In this document: positions 1-22,789 of the stretch, one piece after another
Layout of the letters: every line of letters starts with the position of its first letter
Numbering within the stretch: the first letter of the stretch is position 1
Virus record (IMG/VR): IMGVR_UViG_3300036835_000259
Location: 1 to 23,040 of that record
Length of the DNA stretch: 23,040 nt
Reading direction: 5' to 3' (one strand)
From: a virus
Position numbers and translations under genes: made by a program
Notes under the pieces: model-generated
The model's input: the letters and a program-made list of their open reading frames with translations, nothing else
Told to the model about the DNA's origin: nothing
The model's database searches: none

Positions 1-207
1 CGTGCCAAGGTCGTTGTTGGACACATTGCTGGAGAAGGCTGGCTCGCCCGCAGCACCAACAACATGCCAGGTGTCCATTACAATCGCACCGCCACCACCG
101 CCACCACTGACAGTGCCAGAGACAGCGTCCAAGCGTCGGAAGCGCTCCTCATAGTCGGCGTTACGGAAGGCGTTGTGCAGCCCGTCTCTGCGCTGGGTGA
201 CGGTCAC
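1..207 (-). CDS. Minor tail protein, N-terminal part (runs off window)
   Basis: Only the first 69 codons are present. The chosen start is a GTG whose last two bases overlap the TGA stop of the tail-hub gene (GTGA junction), which fits translational coupling. The visible protein begins with a charged helical stretch (RNADYEERFRRLDAV). A run of six glycines follows, then a segment with the motif WHVVGAAGEPAF. That motif resembles the 'GePaF' opening of receptor-facing minor tail or fibre domains found after the hub gene in many siphophages of Gram-positive hosts. The layout of helix, glycine hinge and beta domain fits a lower-baseplate or fibre protein. The C-terminal part that would decide the function is outside the window, so this is an inference from motif and position. 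Confidence 0.6.
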   Translation of the reverse strand, partial: MTVTQRRDGLHNAFRNADYEERFRRLDAVSGTVSGGGGGGAIVMDTWHVVGAAGEPAFSSNVSNNDLGT

Positions 208-1406
208 GGTGCCACCTGAAGCTGGCCAAGCTGCTCGTTGCCGTCGTCATCGATGTTGACAGTGACGCCAAAGCTGCGCACCGTCTGGCGGGTGATGACG
301 CCACGCTTGTCGCTGACCGCCGACAGTCTGAACTGATCGCCCACCGGGTCATAGTCCACGAACGGCTCGGGCACCGCGTTCGGCAGCACGCCGATGTCAC
401 CGACATACGGGAACGGCGTGATTCCGTAAGTGATCTTGCCATTCTTGCGGACGATGATCTCGGCCCCGGAGTTGGCAAGCAGAATGCTGACGTTGCCAAC
501 ATCGGACAGCGCTGCCGTCTCCTCCAGCAAGCCCACTGTCGCCATACTTGACGTATCGTCCTTGTACTGCGCCGTGGTTCCCGACGTGCCGGTTGTCAGA
601 AAGTAGTTGGCCATCTGGTCGGAATCGATGCTGCGCTCGAAGGCACCGAGGTTGTTCGGTCCCCAGCGGAACGCCACGATCACCGTCGGCCGGTCGGTGC
701 AGCGCTTGCGGTAGCAATAGACCAGACGAGTCTTCGGGTCCAGCCACCAGTCGCAGCCGTACTCGATCCCAGACACGTCATCATAGATGGTATTCGCCTT
801 GGTGTACTTCGGCCGGTTGAGCGTGATCGGCGCGTTGATCGGTGCAACGTCACGGCCCTGATACGCCGTCGCGCCACCAGGACCCTCGTTCGGCAGCGTG
901 CCGCCCCATGCCATCCACGTCGGCGTTGCTGGAGTGGACCCAGCCACCACTGGAACCGCGTAGCCATCCGGGGCGGTGGTCAGGTTCATCTCGGCCAGCA
1001 CGTCCTGGAGGATCGCCGCGTCATCGACCGCTGTCCACACCTTGTCACGTCGCAACATGCGCTTGCCCAGTCGTGACGCCCAGCCGACGCAACTGACAGC
1101 CATGGTGTCTTCGGTCCAGTTCTCGCTGATCGCCAGCACGTTGCCCGACCAGATCCAGTCCCAGATGTCGCCCATGTTGCCAGCAGTACGCCAGGCCAGC
1201 GTGGAGCGCCAGTTGTAGCGCTCGAAGCTGACGCAGGTCGAGTATGGCTGGATCAAGTCTGCGTAGTCAGTTGACATCGGATGATTGAACGACCCCGAGC
1301 CAGGCTTGTTCAGGATCAGTCCCAGACTGCGCGAACGCGCCTGCGTCAACTCACCGATCTTGGAGAGATCTTTGGAGTACCGCAGGTTGACGCGCCATTT
1401 CGCCAT
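204..1406 (-). CDS. Tail hub / baseplate minor tail protein (Tal or gp37-like)
   Basis: This 400-aa protein follows the Dit gene, the usual place for the siphophage tail hub that closes the tube tip. The N-terminus contains ARSRSLGLILNKPGSGSF, which matches the 'ars..l...ln.pGs.sf' opening of gp37-like and similar minor tail proteins. A later block (GNVLAISENWTEDTMAVSCVGW, split here by no gap) also fits that family, where this region continues the hub beta fold. The C-terminal half is beta-rich and ends near residue 400. No peptidase or lysozyme motif is visible, in keeping with the wall-degrading domains lying in the tape measure. The start ATG has only a weak Shine-Dalgarno (CCGAG) and lies 9 nt after the Dit stop. 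Its stop overlaps the next start. Structural role is likely; the exact subfamily is not certain. Confidence 0.75.
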   Translation of the reverse strand: MAKWRVNLRYSKDLSKIGELTQARSRSLGLILNKPGSGSFNHPMSTDYADLIQPYSTCVSFERYNWRSTLAWRTAGNMGDIWDWIWSGNVLAISENWTEDTMAVSCVGWASRLGKRMLRRDKVWTAVDDAAILQDVLAEMNLTTAPDGYAVPVVAGSTPATPTWMAWGGTLPNEGPGGATAYQGRDVAPINAPITLNRPKYTKANTIYDDVSGIEYGCDWWLDPKTRLVYCYRKRCTDRPTVIVAFRWGPNNLGAFERSIDSDQMANYFLTTGTSGTTAQYKDDTSSMATVGLLEETAALSDVGNVSILLANSGAEIIVRKNGKITYGITPFPYVGDIGVLPNAVPEPFVDYDPVGDQFRLSAVSDKRGVITRQTVRSFGVTVNIDDDGNEQLGQLQVAP

Positions 1407-1415
1407 CTCGGTTGT

Positions 1416-4400
1416 CTACATCCATGTGTCTTGGAAGTAGGTCACCATGTCCCAGCCCGGTGACAAGGCGCTTGCGTTGAGGTCGATGTTGTTGACGACT
1501 CCGTTGGGCGAGATGAAGATCCACTGTGAGGTGTCATCGAGGTAGCTGATCCGGTTGGCACCGTCACTGAGCCGGTACAGGCGCTTGCTGTAGCCCTTGT
1601 GCTCCAGCACCCACGTCTCCCCTGCCGGGATCGTGGCGTTGATCTTGGCCATCTGGCCAGTGGCCTCGTTGGTGATGACGGGGTTCGTCATCGGCCCTAC
1701 CAACTCGAACCGCGTCTGCGCCGGGAAGTTGCCAGCATTCTTGACAGCAGCCGCCGTGGTGTTGTAGCTGCCTGTCTCGAAGCGGAAGTCATCGATGCTG
1801 CACTGCATCATGCTCGGCACCCAGTAGATCCCGAACTCGCCCTTGACGCCGGTGCCGAACTTGGCGATGTCAGCCCCCGTCAGCGTGTAGGTCGTCGTCT
1901 GCTGCGGCGTGGCCGGTCCCATGCCTGGATCGACCACGAAGCGGTCAATCTTGATGACGTTTCCGGTCATCGTGACGCGGAACCAGTAGTTTGTAGCCTT
2001 GGCCATTGCCATGGCGCTACTGGACCACAGCGTGCTCTGCACGCCGTTGACACACTTGTCAACGTTCAAGACATCATTGGAGCCATCGAAGTGCGACTGG
2101 TAGCAGGCAATCCAGTTGCTCTTGTCAAGCAACTTGATGACGATCCCAGAGGTGTAGTTCGTGTACGACGGGTCGATCTCGATTCGTTGCTTGATCTGCG
2201 CTGTCAGATCCGGGTTGTTGTACGTCTTCCCTTGCAGGGTGGCGACAACCGGGATCGGCGTCTGTACGCCGGACAGGTATGGCCGGGGGGCCAGTGGGCG
2301 CAGCGTGTTGTTGAGCACCTGAACGCTGCCTGCACCGCTGTAGAACTTCCAGCCCTGTGGCTCGGCCAACGACTGATAGCGCCACTCGTCAAACGCCATG
2401 CCATACGCCGTGAACTGAATGCCGAGGCCGATTCGAGAAGCAGGCGTCAAGAACATTGCCACTTCATCGGATGTCAAGTCGTAGTACCAGGCCCCATACA
2501 CCGTGTACTCGGCTGTGAGGCCGGTGATGTCATTGGTCTGGATGATCTCGCAGATGATCTTCCCCTGCTTGAGCACACCCCGTAGCCAGTAGTTTTGGCC
2601 AGCGTTCCAGGCGAACGTGTTGCCCGAGTCCACCAAGCGCGTTTCAACACCCCTGACACGCTTCGTGATGACAGCGTGGCCATCACTCTCAATGCCTACG
2701 AATAGCTGGTTGTCGAAATCGATGTAGCTCATCACCAGCCGCATCGTATCCGTGTCATTGGTCGTGGCCGGATAGCTGCTGGGGATCTTGACCTTGACCG
2801 CGTTCCAGACATCGGTGTACGAGCGCGGCGTCAAGTAGAGCTTGTAGCTGTTGAGGATGGACTCGCCGCCATCCTTGTTGGCACTGTTGGTTGGCTGCGC
2901 CCACGGCGAGCGCCAGTCGAAGTACGTCGGCAACGTGTCGCTATGGGTGCCAAACGTCATGTCGGCATCGAGCATATCGCCAAGCTGAGGGTTGAGCACC
3001 AGCACGAAGATGCGAACTGAGTAGGCATTGTTCGGCGCGTAGATCCCCTCTAGCGGAACCCGCGTCCAGTCGCCACCCAACACCACATCGGGCGATGTCG
3101 CCCAGGAGATCAACGTATCGTTCTTGTCGTACCAGTCAACTTCCAGTGCCACTGCCCTTGACGCTCCGCCAGGTATCCGCGCCATGGCCGAGAACGAGTG
3201 CTTGTCGCCAGGGAAGTTGAGCCAGGACTTTGCGTACAGCCCCATGCTGGCGAACTGACCCGAGTTGCCAGTGTAGGTCGCCCGATAGAACGCATCGCTG
3301 TCAGCGCCACCAGTGGCAACTTGAGCGACAGTAGCGTTGAGGCCGGTGCGATAAGTGCCAGCCCGCGACGACGGATCGAAGACGAAGTTGCGTTGGCCCA
3401 GCGGCCCCAGCGTTGTGCTGAAGTTGGGCTTGGACGTGTCTCCCCAGTGATACTCCACGCTGGGGTAGCGCTTGACTGGGAGAGCTTGCAGGATGTCCGG
3501 ATCGGCGTAGCGCCCATAGAACCAACCTGACCTGAGCATTGTCAGTGAGAGGTTCATCCACGTACCGTCGGCCCAGTACGAGAAGCGCGGTCGCTTGTAG
3601 TGGAACCTAACCGACACCCTAGCTGTGTTGGCAGGCAAGGTGACAAACCAGATCACGCGCTGCCAGCTTGCCGTGAGTGAGTAGTCTCCGCTCGTCACCG
3701 TAGACAGGTAGGCGTTGCTGCTGTTGTAGCACAGAATCTCGATGTAGAACCGGGCATCGGCTGGCGGGGCCGCTTCAGTCCTGTAGTACGCAGAGACAGT
3801 GTAGTTGCCAGGAGTGGCAAAGTTGCCGTTGGGGACAGGAGCGCCACCGAAGTAGGCATCGTCCTGTTGCTGTCCAGCCTGCACAGAATCGATCTTGCCA
3901 CGGCCCCACGTCAGGCAGCCGGTGTCATCGATCTCCTGCCCTGCGCTGCCGGTGACCTGAGACTCGTTGTAGAGCGTTCCGCCCCAGGCCCCATCTGGTC
4001 CCAGGCCCAAGCTGCCGGTGTTGGCGGCGAACTTGGGGTTGAGGATGAAGTTGGCAACAGGCGTACTGCCACTAGTCGGAACTAGCAACCCGCCTGATGT
4101 TGTGTAGAAGTCACCACCAGACTGTGTATAGCCTGATGACACTCCACTGGTGAAATCCTCGATGATCGGCACATCGGTTGACGTGAAGGTGATCCACGAC
4201 GCCGTGCCGGTAACTGAGAGCCGATACTGGACCAGGCTCAGGAACCATGGCATCGAGGCCCGCAGCGTGAGGCTGAACTGGCGCTGGAAGTCGTTCGGGG
4301 TCGTCTGCTCCTCGGTGATCTGGAGCGGCGAGTTCTTCTTGCAGAGGATGTAAACAGACCTGGCAGGGTCGGGACCGTGGAAGATCAGCGCCCGCTCGGT

Positions 4401-4787
4401 GCTGATGTCCGAGAACGCTGACCGGAAGCTCTGGTTCATGTCGCGCAGCCGGTTCATCGTTCCAGCAATCACCTTGCCAGCAACAACCATCGTCCGCCCG
4501 CCGTACCAGGCGTTGAACGGTGTCTCGCCGTGATCGCCGGGATTGGGCTGGCGTGTGTCACGGATATCGGCGTCATCAATGCCGGTGATGCTCTTGATGA
4601 GGAACGTGTCGCGCCAGTTGACGACGTTCAGGTAGATGCCGTTGTATTCCAGGATCGCCTCAACGCCGCGCGGAGCCGCCAGGCCGGTGCCCTTGCGTAC
4701 TTCCTCCGACAGACCGGCAGCTTGGCTGATGAGCGCCGGTTGCAGCGATGAGATATCGCCGCCAGCATTGAGTGCGAGAACAGACAT
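1416..4787 (-). CDS. Distal tail protein (Dit) with large carbohydrate-binding insertion
   Basis: This 1123-aa protein looks like an 'evolved Dit'. Residues about 1-190 resemble the Dit ring domain (IRDTRQPNPGDHGETPF, then YGGRTMVVAGKVIAGTMNRL). Residues about 1010-1123 resemble the galectin-like C-terminal domain of siphovirus tail components (VKNAGNFPAQTRFELVGP, then GETWVLEHKGYSKRL). Between them lie four beta-sandwich-like modules. Two CBM4/9-like units, about 240-415 and 460-630, begin NFILNPKF and NFVFDPSS. Two LamG/ConA-like units, about 646-805 and 837-1003, share a core G..NYW.R....G..I and end FDEWRYQ or IDDFRFE. Ordinary Dit proteins are about 250-300 aa. The hexameric Dit ring joins tube to baseplate, and the modules probably bind host wall glycans. 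The start follows the 64-aa gene by 6 nt with almost no Shine-Dalgarno, so coupling is likely. Module types are inferred by eye. Confidence 0.78.
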   Translation of the reverse strand: MSVLALNAGGDISSLQPALISQAAGLSEEVRKGTGLAAPRGVEAILEYNGIYLNVVNWRDTFLIKSITGIDDADIRDTRQPNPGDHGETPFNAWYGGRTMVVAGKVIAGTMNRLRDMNQSFRSAFSDISTERALIFHGPDPARSVYILCKKNSPLQITEEQTTPNDFQRQFSLTLRASMPWFLSLVQYRLSVTGTASWITFTSTDVPIIEDFTSGVSSGYTQSGGDFYTTSGGLLVPTSGSTPVANFILNPKFAANTGSLGLGPDGAWGGTLYNESQVTGSAGQEIDDTGCLTWGRGKIDSVQAGQQQDDAYFGGAPVPNGNFATPGNYTVSAYYRTEAAPPADARFYIEILCYNSSNAYLSTVTSGDYSLTASWQRVIWFVTLPANTARVSVRFHYKRPRFSYWADGTWMNLSLTMLRSGWFYGRYADPDILQALPVKRYPSVEYHWGDTSKPNFSTTLGPLGQRNFVFDPSSRAGTYRTGLNATVAQVATGGADSDAFYRATYTGNSGQFASMGLYAKSWLNFPGDKHSFSAMARIPGGASRAVALEVDWYDKNDTLISWATSPDVVLGGDWTRVPLEGIYAPNNAYSVRIFVLVLNPQLGDMLDADMTFGTHSDTLPTYFDWRSPWAQPTNSANKDGGESILNSYKLYLTPRSYTDVWNAVKVKIPSSYPATTNDTDTMRLVMSYIDFDNQLFVGIESDGHAVITKRVRGVETRLVDSGNTFAWNAGQNYWLRGVLKQGKIICEIIQTNDITGLTAEYTVYGAWYYDLTSDEVAMFLTPASRIGLGIQFTAYGMAFDEWRYQSLAEPQGWKFYSGAGSVQVLNNTLRPLAPRPYLSGVQTPIPVVATLQGKTYNNPDLTAQIKQRIEIDPSYTNYTSGIVIKLLDKSNWIACYQSHFDGSNDVLNVDKCVNGVQSTLWSSSAMAMAKATNYWFRVTMTGNVIKIDRFVVDPGMGPATPQQTTTYTLTGADIAKFGTGVKGEFGIYWVPSMMQCSIDDFRFETGSYNTTAAAVKNAGNFPAQTRFELVGPMTNPVITNEATGQMAKINATIPAGETWVLEHKGYSKRLYRLSDGANRISYLDDTSQWIFISPNGVVNNIDLNASALSPGWDMVTYFQDTWM

Positions 4788-4793
4788 GTCTAC

Positions 4794-4988
4794 TTAGTTG
4801 TCGAGGATGGACTCGAAGTACGCCACCGCTTCGTCGTACGCCGTCGTATCCCAGGGGACGATCTCTGGCGGCGGCTCCAGTGTCACGTCTTGGTCTGGGA
4901 CTGGCACCGGCACGACATCATCCAGCGGTAGTAGCTCAGCCTTGCTGGGCGGGACTGGCTCGTCCGGCAGCGTTAGCAGCGTCATCAT
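4794..4988 (-). CDS. Small acidic proline-rich protein of the baseplate region
   Basis: This 64-aa ORF starts at an ATG overlapping the stop of the collar-fibre gene (ATGATGA), with GGAGG just upstream in that gene's end. It stops 6 nt before the Dit start. The protein is acidic and rich in proline and valine in its first 45 residues (PVPVPDQDVTLEPPPE). It ends in a short predicted helix, YDEAVAYFESILDN. There is no signal peptide, membrane segment or cysteine. The tight overlaps on both sides and the good ribosome site support translation. I do not recognise a family. Position suggests an accessory tail-tip or assembly role, but nothing in the sequence shows one. Confidence 0.65.
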   Translation of the reverse strand: MMTLLTLPDEPVPPSKAELLPLDDVVPVPVPDQDVTLEPPPEIVPWDTTAYDEAVAYFESILDN

Positions 4989-6121
4989 GCCGTCCTCCTC
5001 ACCTTCATGATCTTCAGCAGGCCGTAGAACGCCGGACGGAAGTCACTGCTCGGCGTGCTCACCCAGTTGACAGCCCCCTTGGTGACCGAATCGAGGAAGT
5101 TGGCAGGCTGCTGACCGGAAGCGTTGTAGGCGTTGGATGTCCACGACGCGATCTGACCCTGGCCTGCTGTCGAGCCAGCGATCCCGAGGTTGCCAACTGT
5201 GTTGGTGCTGCCGCTGACGCTGACGCTGAAGTTGTGCTGATGGTTGCCACCGGCTCGCGTGAACGCGGTGCCGGACGCCGATCCCACGTCGTTGATCGGC
5301 GCACTGGTTGTGCCACTGCCACTGGCGCTGACGGTGTGGCCGTGGCTGCCGGTGTAGAGCGTGCCAGCGCCGTGGGTGTGGTCAGGCGTGTAGCTCTGGT
5401 GGATGTGCTGCACACCTTGGACGGCGTGCTGATGGTCGAGGTTGAAGGCAGCGTTGGTGCCACCCGTACCCCTGATGCCAGGGCCTTGCGTCGGGCCGTC
5501 ACCCTGGTCGGCACCGGAGCCATCCGTCTTGTTGTAGGACGCGCCGATGATGAACTTGTTGCGCAGGTCAGGAACGTTGATGGGGCCGCTGATGCCGGTG
5601 AACTCATGAACGTTGACCTGATGGCCATCGCAGATCTCGAATCCGTCAGGCGAGTTGACGGTGCCAGCCGGACGCCACCAGTCGATCACTGCACCGATGG
5701 GCACTTCCTGCTGGACCACCAGCGGAGCCAGCATCGCCTGCGTGATGCCGCCGTCGGCTGCCAAGTAGCTTGTCGGAATCGAGCCTGCCTTGGCAGGGAC
5801 CGCGTTCCAGGGGATGCGGTCGTTGATCCGCGCTGGCACGTTCTGGTCCTCGAACACCACGTCGTACTCGGCCGGACCATCGGCCCAGAAGCGCACAGAC
5901 CCACTTGTGCCGGTCAGGAACGCCTTGCCCTGAGGCGTGGCCCCGCTGCGGGGGTCGGGGCCTGTGGTGACGCCCTGGTCGGTCTGGTACACGTTCAGCG
6001 CACTGCCAGCAACGTCGGTGGCGTTCCGTGGCACCAGCGTCACCTTGACGTTCGACAGCGCCTTGAACGCACCAGTCGCATCGGGCAATGCGATTGTCGT
6101 TTCGTAGTAGTCTCTGGCCAT
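4985..6121 (-). CDS. Tail collar-domain fibre / receptor-binding protein
   Basis: This 378-aa protein starts 10 nt after the tape measure stop, with AGGGAG upstream. Residues about 1-125 form a beta-rich domain that probably attaches to the tail. At about 139-195 is a phage tail collar domain: PIGAVIDWWRP, PDGFEICDG, then VPDLRNKFIIGA. From about 228 to 300 come repeated HxH pairs (HQH, HIH, HTH, HGH, HQH). In T4-type and R-pyocin fibres, HxH motifs coordinate metal ions along a trimeric needle. The C-terminus, FRPAFYGLLKIMK, matches the usual end of collar fibres. It is therefore probably a trimeric fibre that contacts the host. Its place between the tape measure and Dit genes is unusual, since such fibres normally follow the hub. 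Domain assignment is confident; the metal ion and receptor are not shown. Confidence 0.82.
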   Translation of the reverse strand: MARDYYETTIALPDATGAFKALSNVKVTLVPRNATDVAGSALNVYQTDQGVTTGPDPRSGATPQGKAFLTGTSGSVRFWADGPAEYDVVFEDQNVPARINDRIPWNAVPAKAGSIPTSYLAADGGITQAMLAPLVVQQEVPIGAVIDWWRPAGTVNSPDGFEICDGHQVNVHEFTGISGPINVPDLRNKFIIGASYNKTDGSGADQGDGPTQGPGIRGTGGTNAAFNLDHQHAVQGVQHIHQSYTPDHTHGAGTLYTGSHGHTVSASGSGTTSAPINDVGSASGTAFTRAGGNHQHNFSVSVSGSTNTVGNLGIAGSTAGQGQIASWTSNAYNASGQQPANFLDSVTKGAVNWVSTPSSDFRPAFYGLLKIMKVRRTA

Positions 6122-19323: not shown

Positions 19324-20385
19324 TCAGCGCACGTCGGCGTACAGGAACGCCTCGGGCACCTTGAGACGCACCATGCGTCGGCTGGCCTGCCGCAGCAGTC
19401 GGGTGTAGACGCCCTCGCCCTTCAGGATGATCTCGGACTGCGGTCCGGGCAGGAACGTCGTCGTGTCGATGCCGGTCTTGATCTCGACCGGGCCGTTCAG
19501 CGTCTCCGCGATGTTGCCGTAGCCGGGGATGCTGTACGCGGTGGTGATGAGGATGTTGCCGACCGGCAGGTAGCGCGTGTGGTCCTGCGGGCGACGGCTC
19601 GCGCCGACGCTCTCCTCTCGGTACGCCTCGTTCGTCGGAACGAACGTCACCCCGGTTGGCAGGAGCTTGTTCACGTCTTCGAGGGTCGGCATGAACGGCT
19701 GCCCCGGCTCCACGTTGAAGTAGAGCGGGAGCTTCTGGTTCGTGAGCAGCAGTTCGATGTCGTCGTCGCTGATGTGAACCATCAGCCCCGGCGACCCTGC
19801 ATCGGTGCTGACCTGCTTGAGCCAGACCTTCAGGTCGTTGATCGGATCGGAGTTGACGAGATCCGTCCACGGCACCGTCGCTGACGGCTTGTGACCGGCG
19901 GCGAACGGGTAGTCGATGACAAGCGCGGTGTCACGCGCCTGGTACTCGATGGTGAGTTGGCCGGAGAACGCCTGCCAGCGCATCCACTCGGTCAGCCGCT
20001 CGTTGCGGCGTTCGAGGATCTGGCCGATCTCCACCAGCCGACGGGCCTCGCGGCCTGCCAGCTTCTCGCCGCCTTGCGTCAGGATCTCCCAACGCCGTGG
20101 CGAGATGCGGTGTGCTTCGTCCAGATAGGCAAGCTCGATGACCTCCTCGCGCTCCTCCCGTCCGGTAATGTCCATCAACGGGATTGACGCTTCGGGGGCA
20201 CGGAACTGGCCGATGCCTGTGGCGTAGCTGTCCTCCACCGACATCTTGACGTACTGGTCGTCCGTCTCGACCATCGGAGCGATCTGCTCTCCGATGAACG
20301 GCAGGAGTTCCATTTCCGTCTCGACCGGGCCGACGATTGCGTCCGTCAGTGTCGCCTGGTCCATGATGTCGTCGATGACTGCCAT
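19324..20385 (-). CDS. Major capsid protein (lambda gpE-like)
   Basis: This 353-aa protein has the length and features of the phage major capsid protein E family. The N-terminal part has LPFIGEQIAPMVETDDQYVKM, followed by a long central region with AHRISPRRWEILTQGGEKL and REARRLVEIGQILERRNERL. The core includes RDTALVIDYPF, DDDIELLLTNQKLPLYFN and VPTNEAYREESVG. The C-terminus carries SIPGYGNIAETLNGPVEIK and LRQASRRMVRLKVPEAFLY. It forms the icosahedral shell on the scaffold. The upstream gene encodes a gpD-type decoration protein, the lambda arrangement, which supports the call. The ribosome site GGGAGGTGG (20395-20403) is strong. Confidence 0.92.
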   Translation of the reverse strand: MAVIDDIMDQATLTDAIVGPVETEMELLPFIGEQIAPMVETDDQYVKMSVEDSYATGIGQFRAPEASIPLMDITGREEREEVIELAYLDEAHRISPRRWEILTQGGEKLAGREARRLVEIGQILERRNERLTEWMRWQAFSGQLTIEYQARDTALVIDYPFAAGHKPSATVPWTDLVNSDPINDLKVWLKQVSTDAGSPGLMVHISDDDIELLLTNQKLPLYFNVEPGQPFMPTLEDVNKLLPTGVTFVPTNEAYREESVGASRRPQDHTRYLPVGNILITTAYSIPGYGNIAETLNGPVEIKTGIDTTTFLPGPQSEIILKGEGVYTRLLRQASRRMVRLKVPEAFLYADVR

Positions 20386-21409: not shown

Positions 21410-22789
21410 TCAGGCAGGCTGTCGCCTGCGTTGGCGTGCAGCACGAACACGACCTTCGGGCGTGCTCAGGTCGTACATCGGCACGACCGTTGTCGGTTCG
21501 GCTGGCTTGGGCGCGGGAGCCTTGATCGTCTCCCAGGTTGACGACTCCGCGAAGAACACATGCCCTGTCACCGGCTGGTAGAACTGGGCGAGGAACACCG
21601 CCCCGTTCGCCTTGTTCCGGAGCAGCGCACGGCTGTCCAGCGAAGTCTCCTCCACGACAAGGTCCTTGGCAGGTCCCTCACCGAGCAGGTCGCTGAGCGC
21701 GATGCTCAGCTTGTCCACCAGCTTGCCGTGAGACAGGCTGGCGAAGCTCGCCATCGGATCGCCGTGCTCATCGCTGGCGGCGATCATCGCGGTCTTGCCC
21801 TCGATCCAGCGCGCCGACGGAGCGGCCGTGACAGCACCATTGTCGTCCACGCTGTAGGGGACCACGTAGTTGGTCGTCTTGCCCTTGTACGACTCCTCGA
21901 CTTGGGCAAGGTTGGGATCGTTGTGGGTCACATCGACCACGTAGTAGTACGCACGCGGCTGATACGGCCTGGTCGGATCGTCGTGCTGCTCCTCGGGTGG
22001 GTTGAGCACCTGTTCGAGCGAGCGACGGATGTGCTGCGACGACGCGCCTTCGATCCAGATGACCTTCGCGTCGTTGTCATCCGCATTGCTGGGTTCATCG
22101 AAGTTCACGACCTCGAACTCGACGCCCTCCTGATGGAAGGTGTCATCCCCGAAGAAGACCCTGGGGAAGCCCTCCAGCCCTGACATCCACGGATGCTTGG
22201 TCAGGGCGACGTGGTTGAGCGCGCAGGGGAAGTACCTGTCATCCGCCTTGCGCACCCAGTCGAAGAAGATCCCCGACGACACGTTCGGCACGGAACCCCG
22301 CTTGACACGCTGTGCCACGTCCGGCTCTGTGAACCCCATGTCAGCCTGCATGACATGACAGTCCTTGAGGATGTTGCCCTCGCCCAGATCGACATCCTTC
22401 TGGACGATACGCAGGTTACGGATGTAGCCGGTGTTGTTGAGCGCGCTGTCACCCCTGACGAGCTTCTGCGTCTGCGGATCGACCCGATCAGGCTTCGGGT
22501 GACCGTCAGGGATAGTGACATCATCGAACGCCTTGGCGTCGAACGACTTGATGATGTCCTCCAGGGAGACGATCCGGCGCGTGCTGGACGAGCGTCCGGA
22601 CGGAACCACGCTGAACGGGACCTTGGTCTTCTGTCCCGGTGTGATGGCGATGACCCCTTCGCGCAGGATGTCCTTCCACAGATGCGTCGTGTCGCCATCC
22701 TTGACTTCCTCGACCGGAGCGGACGAGGCGAAGTTCAGGACGATGGCGAGCGGATGCAGCGTGCCTTCGGTGTCAGCGACCGCACTCAT
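21410..22789 (-). CDS. Prohead maturation protease
   Basis: This 459-aa protein starts at an ATG overlapping the stop of the upstream gene (ATGA), with GAGGAGG upstream. Residues about 90-200 fit a caudoviral prohead protease: DGHPKPD (H97), GYIRNLRIVQK, then SVPNVSSGIFFDW (S171/S172), followed by CALNHVALTKHPWMSG. The probable catalytic pair is H97 and one of the two serines. Residues about 280-345 carry a second region (PRAYYYVVDVTHNDPN, YVVPYSVDDNGAVTAAP) resembling the 'vrDvy.d..v.... y.vpY..d.dG.V' segment seen in some prohead protease and maturation proteins. The protein is about twice the usual protease length. It would cut scaffold and capsid precursors before DNA packaging. Family assignment is by motif; activity is inferred. 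Confidence 0.72.
   Translation of the reverse strand: MSAVADTEGTLHPLAIVLNFASSAPVEEVKDGDTTHLWKDILREGVIAITPGQKTKVPFSVVPSGRSSSTRRIVSLEDIIKSFDAKAFDDVTIPDGHPKPDRVDPQTQKLVRGDSALNNTGYIRNLRIVQKDVDLGEGNILKDCHVMQADMGFTEPDVAQRVKRGSVPNVSSGIFFDWVRKADDRYFPCALNHVALTKHPWMSGLEGFPRVFFGDDTFHQEGVEFEVVNFDEPSNADDNDAKVIWIEGASSQHIRRSLEQVLNPPEEQHDDPTRPYQPRAYYYVVDVTHNDPNLAQVEESYKGKTTNYVVPYSVDDNGAVTAAPSARWIEGKTAMIAASDEHGDPMASFASLSHGKLVDKLSIALSDLLGEGPAKDLVVEETSLDSRALLRNKANGAVFLAQFYQPVTGHVFFAESSTWETIKAPAPKPAEPTTVVPMYDLSTPEGRVRAARQRRRQPA

Follow-up and report, generated by a model that had tools for sequence, protein, structure and literature searches.

The question raised by the stretch of phage DNA analysed here (the window: the entire 23,040-base IMG/VR virus record IMGVR_UViG_3300036835_000259, G+C ~62%) is why its distal tail protein, Dit, is 1123 amino acids (aa) long and what has been placed between the two ends of that protein. 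The structural gene module of the phage lies on the minus strand, and the plus-strand frame over positions 1416-4787, where the dit gene is found, is interrupted by many stops. An earlier reading of the sequence alone (the original prediction), which named no strand, had described a Dit split by four sugar-binding modules, and Dit halves were indeed found at both ends of the minus-strand frame. The protein is best read as an evolved Dit whose four-module insert, by analogy with phages whose tails have been characterized, probably serves for reversible contact with a host polysaccharide.

Residues 1-193 and 1009-1123 are the two halves of a Dit, an assignment that is weak from Pfam alone and firm from structure and relatives. 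In the 1123-aa protein Sipho_tail matches residues 62-162 (E 7e-4) and SPP1_Dit residues 1019-1098 (E 0.0019), both below the Pfam cut-off. Among the 13 aligned Dits, SPP1_Dit matches all 13 (E ≤ 1, best 4e-11) and Sipho_tail 10 (E ≤ 1, best 1.5e-6). The N-terminal domain is 40-53% identical to that of 13 of the 14 other matched Dits (19% for L084, the fourteenth), and the C-terminal domain is 60% identical to that of L083 and 61% to that of L071. A profile of the N-terminal domain found no Dit among PDB sequences. An AlphaFold2 model of the whole protein was obtained from a 15-sequence alignment, with a mean predicted local distance difference test score (pLDDT) of 60 and a predicted template modelling score (pTM) of 0.39; the mean pLDDT is ~68 over the N-terminal domain (44-51 at residues 71-100) and 49 over A2, the second of the inserted modules, with higher values over the last two modules and the C-terminal domain (Table 1). 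In the predicted structure, 245 residues spread across 37..1123 aligned with 8zdo_m (Z 16.2, root-mean-square deviation (rmsd) 3.9), which is a chain of 290 residues from the baseplate of mycobacteriophage Douge. Judged by its length this chain is most likely the Dit (DTP) of Douge, which has 291 residues, with a belt domain at 1-142 and a galectin domain at 143-291 (PMC13033339).

Neither the window DNA, searched against phages, nor the peptide patterns of the 1123-aa Dit itself, searched against named phages and IMG/VR, returned relatives (no related sequence in the first case, none of the whole protein in the second), and searches with the capsid and tape measure proteins found only remote relatives among named phages, all below 60% identity. 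Relatives of the Dit were reached through a scan with the major capsid protein, which gave 41 related loci, with a Dit match (E ≤ 1) in 14 of the 41 records; another 7 and 15 loci came from two additional scans, 1 of the former and 5 of the latter in records beyond the 41 (one shared). The resulting comparison set holds 18 full-length Dits including that of the window, after exclusion of L106 (cut by a contig end) and L084 (169 aa, a weak match with no C-domain match). Two pairs in it, L076/L077 and L075/L092, have identical match values and are probably near-copies.

Seven of the 18 Dits (L073, L075, L079, L080, L092, L100 and L104) are classical, insert-free proteins of 283-305 aa, L104 being judged without its C-terminal domain, and the middle of the window's Dit is thus an insert relative to the classical Dit of its own lineage. 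The insert-free proteins join the same N- and C-terminal domains; this is clear for L073 and L075, and for L079 and L080 it is indicated by Pfam together with weak direct matches. In L075 and L073 the N-terminal match ends at residue 187 and the C-terminal match starts at 1009-1017, in agreement with the module limits of 190-1010 given by the original prediction. Five Dits, those of the window, L071, L072, L074 and L083, carry A-type units followed by two B-type units, B1 and B2, between the Dit halves: two A units in the window, one each in L071, L072 and L074, and one recognisable A unit in the 1358-aa Dit of L083. The last protein has ~440 extra residues that the leave-one-out A profile does not recover and that perhaps represent two more A-like units. 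That so long a Dit arose by misassembly or by fusion of neighbouring genes might be suspected from a single metagenomic record of 23,040 bases. This explanation was rejected as extremely improbable, given that the same architecture recurs in four other records, without internal stops and with homologous neighbours on both sides.

The four modules of the window, A1, A2, B1 and B2, follow a short leader (Table 1). In local alignments A1 and A2 scored 60 and B1 and B2 scored 49, each score being equalled by 3 of 500 shuffles. A leave-one-out A profile (E values computed for 1000 sequences) recovered A2 at 4e-17 and also A1 (Table 1), a match from which A1 is putatively placed in the A family. Modelled separately from a family of 8 sequences (mean pLDDT 67, pTM 0.70), A2 is predicted to have a carbohydrate-binding module (CBM) fold of the CBM22/CBM4 type, with matches to CBM22 1h6x (Z 13.8, rmsd 3.6, 150 residues aligned) and CBM4-2 2y6j (Z 13.1, rmsd 2.8, 146 aligned), and also resembles phage tailspike C-domains. 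The structure matches of the whole model were mostly to the ConA-like fold and ended at residues 1005-1011, so that they concern mainly B2, for which a ConA/CBM66 fold is predicted: CBM66 4b1m_C aligned over 156 residues (Z 16.4, rmsd 2.6), and many legume lectins reached Z 15-16. Among the Foldseek matches are LG domains of laminin, as well as the CBM2 from the evolved Dit of phage J-1 (5ly8, E 7e-5). B1 is likewise assigned to the ConA family, from its profile relation to B2 and a moderately confident model. Fold matches of the modules also include glycoside hydrolases and cyclases, as might be expected if they were enzymes or enzyme remnants, for instance accessory domains of depolymerases, instead of adhesins. 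However, Pfam finds no catalytic domain in the 1123-aa protein, and the xylanase, arabinanase and mannanase matches that give chain ranges cover one stretch of ~150 residues and not a whole enzyme, which makes this very unlikely.

The two B units share the motifs quoted in the original prediction (NYW at residues 732 and 933, FDEWRYQ at 799 and IDDFRFE at 998), from which it had proposed internal duplication and divergence. The proposal holds, and the duplication is old. A profile of the five B1 units matches the window's B2 at E 9e-7 (E values again computed for 1000 sequences); in the reverse direction a profile of the five B2 units gave E 1.5 for the window's B1, 1e-4 for that of L074, 0.02 for L071 and 4.7 for L072, with no match in L083. 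In a tree of B units the B1 units of the five phages form one clade (support 100/99), and the single B units found in other phages (L077 Dit and Tal, L081, L082 and L105) are all matched more closely by the B2 profile than by that of B1. The duplication is therefore older than the five phages, with B1 as the diverged copy; a recent duplication was rejected on the same clade.

B-type modules are found elsewhere at the tail tip as well. In L076 and L077 one B unit lies between the Dit halves and another starts the Tal gene; this gene, of 802 aa (L077:9449-11857, plus strand; L076:6324-8732, minus strand), opens with the module next to a Dit that also carries one. In L105 the B unit lies within the N-terminal (belt) domain of the Dit, as found by BLAST, and in L081 and L082 it apparently does so too, judging the alignment by eye. 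The B family thus occupies up to three places, namely the junction of the Dit halves, the Dit N-terminal domain and the start of Tal. In L078 the Dit halves are separated by a Laminin_G_3 domain (5e-24). Phages with capsid proteins 78-87% identical to that of the window differ in their insert state, and a capsid tree with 13 labelled rows needs three changes of insert state, two of them forced by well-supported branches. Modules are gained and lost between close relatives. This gives a natural series of 0, 1, 3, 4 and perhaps 5 modules at one site, in phages with capsids 66-87% identical to the window's, which would allow adsorption to be tested module by module.

What such an insert might do can be pictured from the known architecture of the tail tip. 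The two Dit halves would pair into a ring, formed of the belt and galectin-like domains, as the link between tail tube and Tal-like hub, and the four beta-sandwich modules, two CBM22/CBM4-like (A1 and A2) and two ConA/CBM66-like (B1 and B2), would project from the junction of the halves. Dits are known as six per ring, and the tip of a hexamer would display up to 24 modules on six arms. Most likely these modules make weak, multivalent and reversible contacts with a host surface polysaccharide, which would hold the virion near the envelope until a receptor-binding protein and the Tal-like hub trigger DNA release. The suggested sugar binding and adsorption role follow experimentally studied cases. 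In dairy and Bacillus phages CBMs inserted in the Dit bind host cells and aid adsorption (PMC10688798, PMC9128512); three classical skunaviruses that received a cloned evolved Dit were fully infectious on lactococci bearing exopolysaccharide (PMC10688798), and the Deep-Purple evoDit binds more strains than the CBM region of the receptor-binding protein, although alone it seems insufficient for infection (PMC9128512). In mycobacteriophage Claus, the second domain of BppU, a protein that lies around the Dit ring, has a CBM66 (4B1M)-like fold like that of the B modules, and in an array experiment the BppU domains reportedly bound glycans of the mycobacterial wall (preprint PMC13252515).

Conservation in the five A-B1-B2 phages falls from the core of the tail tip to the modules, with mean pairwise identities of 59% for the N-terminal and 54% for the C-terminal Dit domain and 56% for Tal, against 34% for B2, 28% for B1 and 25% for the A units, which is the pattern expected of a receptor-facing part. 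The same values bear on another role for the modules, that of a scaffold which docks a separate fibre or receptor-binding protein and binds no sugar of its own. Docking surfaces should be conserved together with their partners, yet the modules are the least conserved parts; their number differs from phage to phage, and their folds are those of glycan binders. In support of docking, each of the other four A-B1-B2 phages has a Pfam Collagen match in the gene that immediately follows Tal (above the cut-off in L071, L072 and L074, below it in L083 with E 5e-5), whereas the genes in the same place in L073 and L075, with classical Dits, have no Collagen match, a comparison of four phages with two. 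Precedents exist in the arm-and-hand of the Dit of lactococcal phage p2, which holds the receptor-binding protein (PMC7291167), and in the inserted domain of the Corndog DTP, which helps to form the gp60 pocket (PMC13252515). On balance we consider a purely scaffolding function unlikely and polysaccharide contact the preferred interpretation.

Several results weigh against this interpretation. Neither set of modules is recognised by the families whose names they were given: Pfam CBM_4_9 (PF02018) matches none of the eight A-type units and the Pfam Laminin_G / LamG models none of the 14 B-type units, at E ≤ 1. Of the original description as CBM4/9-like and LamG-like modules, the folds stand for A2 and B2 and the Pfam family membership does not, and the CBM and LamG names are therefore to be read as likeness of fold. 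A1 has no confident model of its own (mean pLDDT 32). A shared fold is no proof of sugar binding: a ConA or CBM fold may have a structural role alone, and that of A2 occurs in cyclases too. The low conservation of the modules could reflect relaxed constraint instead of exposure to a receptor. The insert label shows no clustering on the capsid tree beyond that of shuffled labels, of which 198 of 500 scored as low. Scans of bacterial genomes, with the Dit N-terminal domain and with capsid alignments, gave no confirmed relative that would point to a host. Two of the checks named by the original prediction came out differently: structure prediction recovered a Dit fold from both ends and carbohydrate-binding or lectin folds for A2 and B2, whereas profile searches of the modules added no match to PDB sequences that was significant (best E 0.024 for A, to phage tailspikes, and 0.068 for B) and none to the Pfam families above. 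Pfam and PHROGs searches of the B units gave no clear family; PHROGs matched some of the eight A members, mostly through minor-tail, minor-head or unknown families (best 6e-7).

A further question is how the modules are arranged. That there are four of two kinds agrees with the A-A-B-B tandem of the original prediction, while a simple tandem is called into question by signs, no more than suggestive, that A1-A2 lie inside B1 and B1 inside B2. In this tentative arrangement, which we regard as conceivable though somewhat doubtful, the Dit would hold B2, whose first loop would carry B1, and the first loop of B1 would in turn carry the A modules. B1 is without the first hairpin seen in B2 and in single B units, and the segment 207-238, before A1, resembles such a hairpin; in the separate model A2 folds without this segment. 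In a profile test, joining leader residues 207-238 to B1 raised the score from 77.9 to 89.1, which was reached by 1 of 100 column shuffles. Taken phage by phage, the real score was reached by 0 of 200 shuffles in the window, 169 of 200 in L083, 15 of 200 in L071, 67 of 200 in L072 and 17 of 200 in L074, and among 68 native segments the leader windows ranked first and fourth (85.1 and 84.2; best unrelated segments 84.4). Because four of the five phages are unconvincing singly and native decoys come close, the placement of A inside B1 was kept as suggestive. The placement of B1 inside B2 is suggested by the structure matches ending in B2, 47 of the 50 listed starting at residues 193-198, as if the first strand of B2 came from before A1; the range of each match gives its first and last aligned residue only, and these residues lie in a stretch with pLDDT 53-59. 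If the nesting is true, each new module would have been carried further out, so that the number of A units (one, two or, in L083, perhaps three) alters the far tip only. A phage adhesin would then have been lengthened module by module with its base untouched and its most conserved module nearest the tail.

The protein has counterparts in several known systems. The evolved Dits of J-1, skunaviruses, P335 type I phages, OE33PA and Deep-Purple likewise carry CBM-like modules between the belt and galectin parts or in a galectin loop, and for those of lactic-acid-bacteria and Bacillus phages insert-free close relatives exist, as here. In these Dits one to two CBMs are the rule (PMC7291167), in contrast with four modules of two unrelated folds, one of them ConA/LamG-type, in the uncultivated phage of the window. 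The 659-aa Dit of OE33PA, the longest described in the literature consulted, holds a CBM among several inserted domains (PMC8540738), and that of phage D2929 has two inserted domains with three predicted binding regions (PMC10688798). In the evolved-Dit literature consulted, including PMC9692632, PMC9437275 and PMC6669499, no Dit with more than two CBMs or with nested modules is described, the Dit of D2929 and the Bxb1 DTP coming closest. The original statement that the insert is more elaborate than known ones therefore agrees with the literature and less clearly so with the databases. Among viral models searched with Foldseek, a 1125-aa Dit-domain protein of Lactococcus phage P078 ranked first, and other Dit-named proteins have 851 and 1042 aa; the whole-model TM-scores of the three are low (0.10-0.18). 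Lactococcus phage P118, a Nevevirus and sister of P078, has a Dit of nearly equal length to that of the window, in the gene order tape measure, 1125-aa protein and a 398-aa tail protein in the place of Tal. This Dit matches Dit_N (E 2e-32), BppA (5e7t, E 8e-10 at 173-376) and, below the cut-off, CBM_4_9 (0.025), whereas the A and B profiles do not match it significantly (at most 2 bits, at 173-320). The P118/P078 proteins differ in being of the CBM/BppA kind, with no ConA-type unit recognised, and in phage genus and host. Read by eye, the P118 protein (L111:16972-20349, plus strand), annotated only as 'tail protein', seems to repeat the motifs that open and close a CBM ~4 times in the stretch from Dit_N to the C-terminus.

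The nearest named Dits, of Streptomyces and Arthrobacter phages, are weak matches (best E 8e-4) found only via the Dit of a relative. In the cultured actinophage OnionKnight, which infects Streptomyces, gp18 (468 aa, 'minor tail protein') likewise has a CBM_4_9-like unit between Dit ends (SPP1_Dit 7.5e-9; Sipho_tail 0.003 and CBM_4_9 0.015, both below the cut-off); it differs in having a single module, and its matches to the A and B profiles are not significant (0.02-0.1). Mycobacteriophage baseplates (Douge, Claus, Corndog, Bxb1) share the Dit core with the window, as the 8zdo_m match indicates. In Douge and Claus, however, the CBM is on the separate BppU protein next to the Dit ring (PMC13252515, PMC13033339), whereas in the window the lectin-like domains form part of the Dit itself, as an insert. 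The Corndog DTP also carries an extra domain between its two Dit domains, though a Rossmann-like one, and three further domains of the Bxb1 DTP are described as CTE-like (PMC13252515). The protein of the window is a strongly elaborated evolved Dit of unusual size, a size not unique given the P118 protein; it stands out by combining two folds, by the varying number of modules among its relatives and by the possible nesting. With it the evolved-Dit concept, developed in phages of dairy bacteria and Bacillus, reaches a lineage of environmental phages. OnionKnight gp18 and P118 gp19 show that such Dits can hide under the names 'minor tail protein' or 'tail protein'.

Table 1. Features of the 1123-aa Dit and of the genes around it (positions in the window).
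Feature	Residues	Positions	Strand	Basis
dit gene, evolved Dit, 1123 aa		1416..4787	-	single open frame; Dit domains at both ends
Dit N-terminal (belt/RIFT) domain	1-193	4209..4787	-	phrog_33 Dit; homology to N-domains of other Dits
Leader, with a possible B2 first strand (~195-201) and B1 first hairpin (207-238)	194-238	4074..4208	-	structure-match starts; profile extension; suggestive only
Module A1, CBM4/22-like through homology to A2	239-437	3477..4073	-	leave-one-out profile E 4e-5
Module A2, CBM22/CBM4-like beta-sandwich	438-640	2868..3476	-	separate model; fold matches
Module B1, ConA/LamG-like	646-812	2352..2852	-	one-direction profile relation to B2; B1 clade 100/99; mean pLDDT 75
Module B2, ConA/LamG-like	813-1008	1764..2351	-	mean pLDDT 77 over 821-1000; CBM66 and legume lectin fold matches
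Dit C-terminal (galectin-like) domain and stop	1009-1123	1416..1763	-	SPP1_Dit; mean pLDDT 82
Tal-like / baseplate hub protein, 400 aa		204..1406	-	immediately downstream of dit; homologues adjoin or lie near dit in relatives; phrog_1885 minor tail protein, weak
Small proline-rich acidic open frame, 64 aa		4794-4988	-	between collar-like gene and dit; purine-rich stretch just upstream
Tail-collar/fibre-like protein, 378 aa		4985..6121	-	Pfam Collar E 0.006, below cut-off; same position in close relatives
Tape measure protein, 2630 aa		6131..14023	-	phrog_167 1e-54
Major capsid protein		19324-20385	-	Phage_cap_E 9e-9
Protease-like head protein		21410-22789	-	phrog_976 E 7e-4

Around the gene, tape measure, dit and tal follow in the order known for evolved Dits. 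The tape measure gene usually has dit directly after it, as is seen in L081, L104 and L105; in the window the collar/fibre-like gene and the 64-aa open frame intervene, and the former (4985-6121) is retained between tape measure and dit in close relatives. A tRNA search of the 23,040-base window found none. The truncated gene downstream of Tal is perhaps a candidate for a dedicated receptor-binding protein. In L083 (12743-19001, plus strand) a frame of at least 2086 aa, with a collagen-like stretch below the cut-off, directly follows Tal. Within the tape measure protein of the window, residues 1895-1954 match Transglycosylase SLT just below the cut-off (E 3e-4), and upstream of this match lies what may, by eye, be an M15-type peptidase motif.

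Two observations concern L082. Besides its B module, the Dit of this phage (10428-13232, minus strand) seems to contain an intein-like block at its conserved GRT motif, judged by start and end motifs read by eye; one aligned Dit, by eye that of L082, matches LAGLIDADG_3 (4.5e-9) and Hom_end (4e-4). Between the dit and Tal-like genes of the same phage lies a 658-aa gene (L082:8448-10424, minus strand) with two Laminin_G_3 stretches (6e-31).

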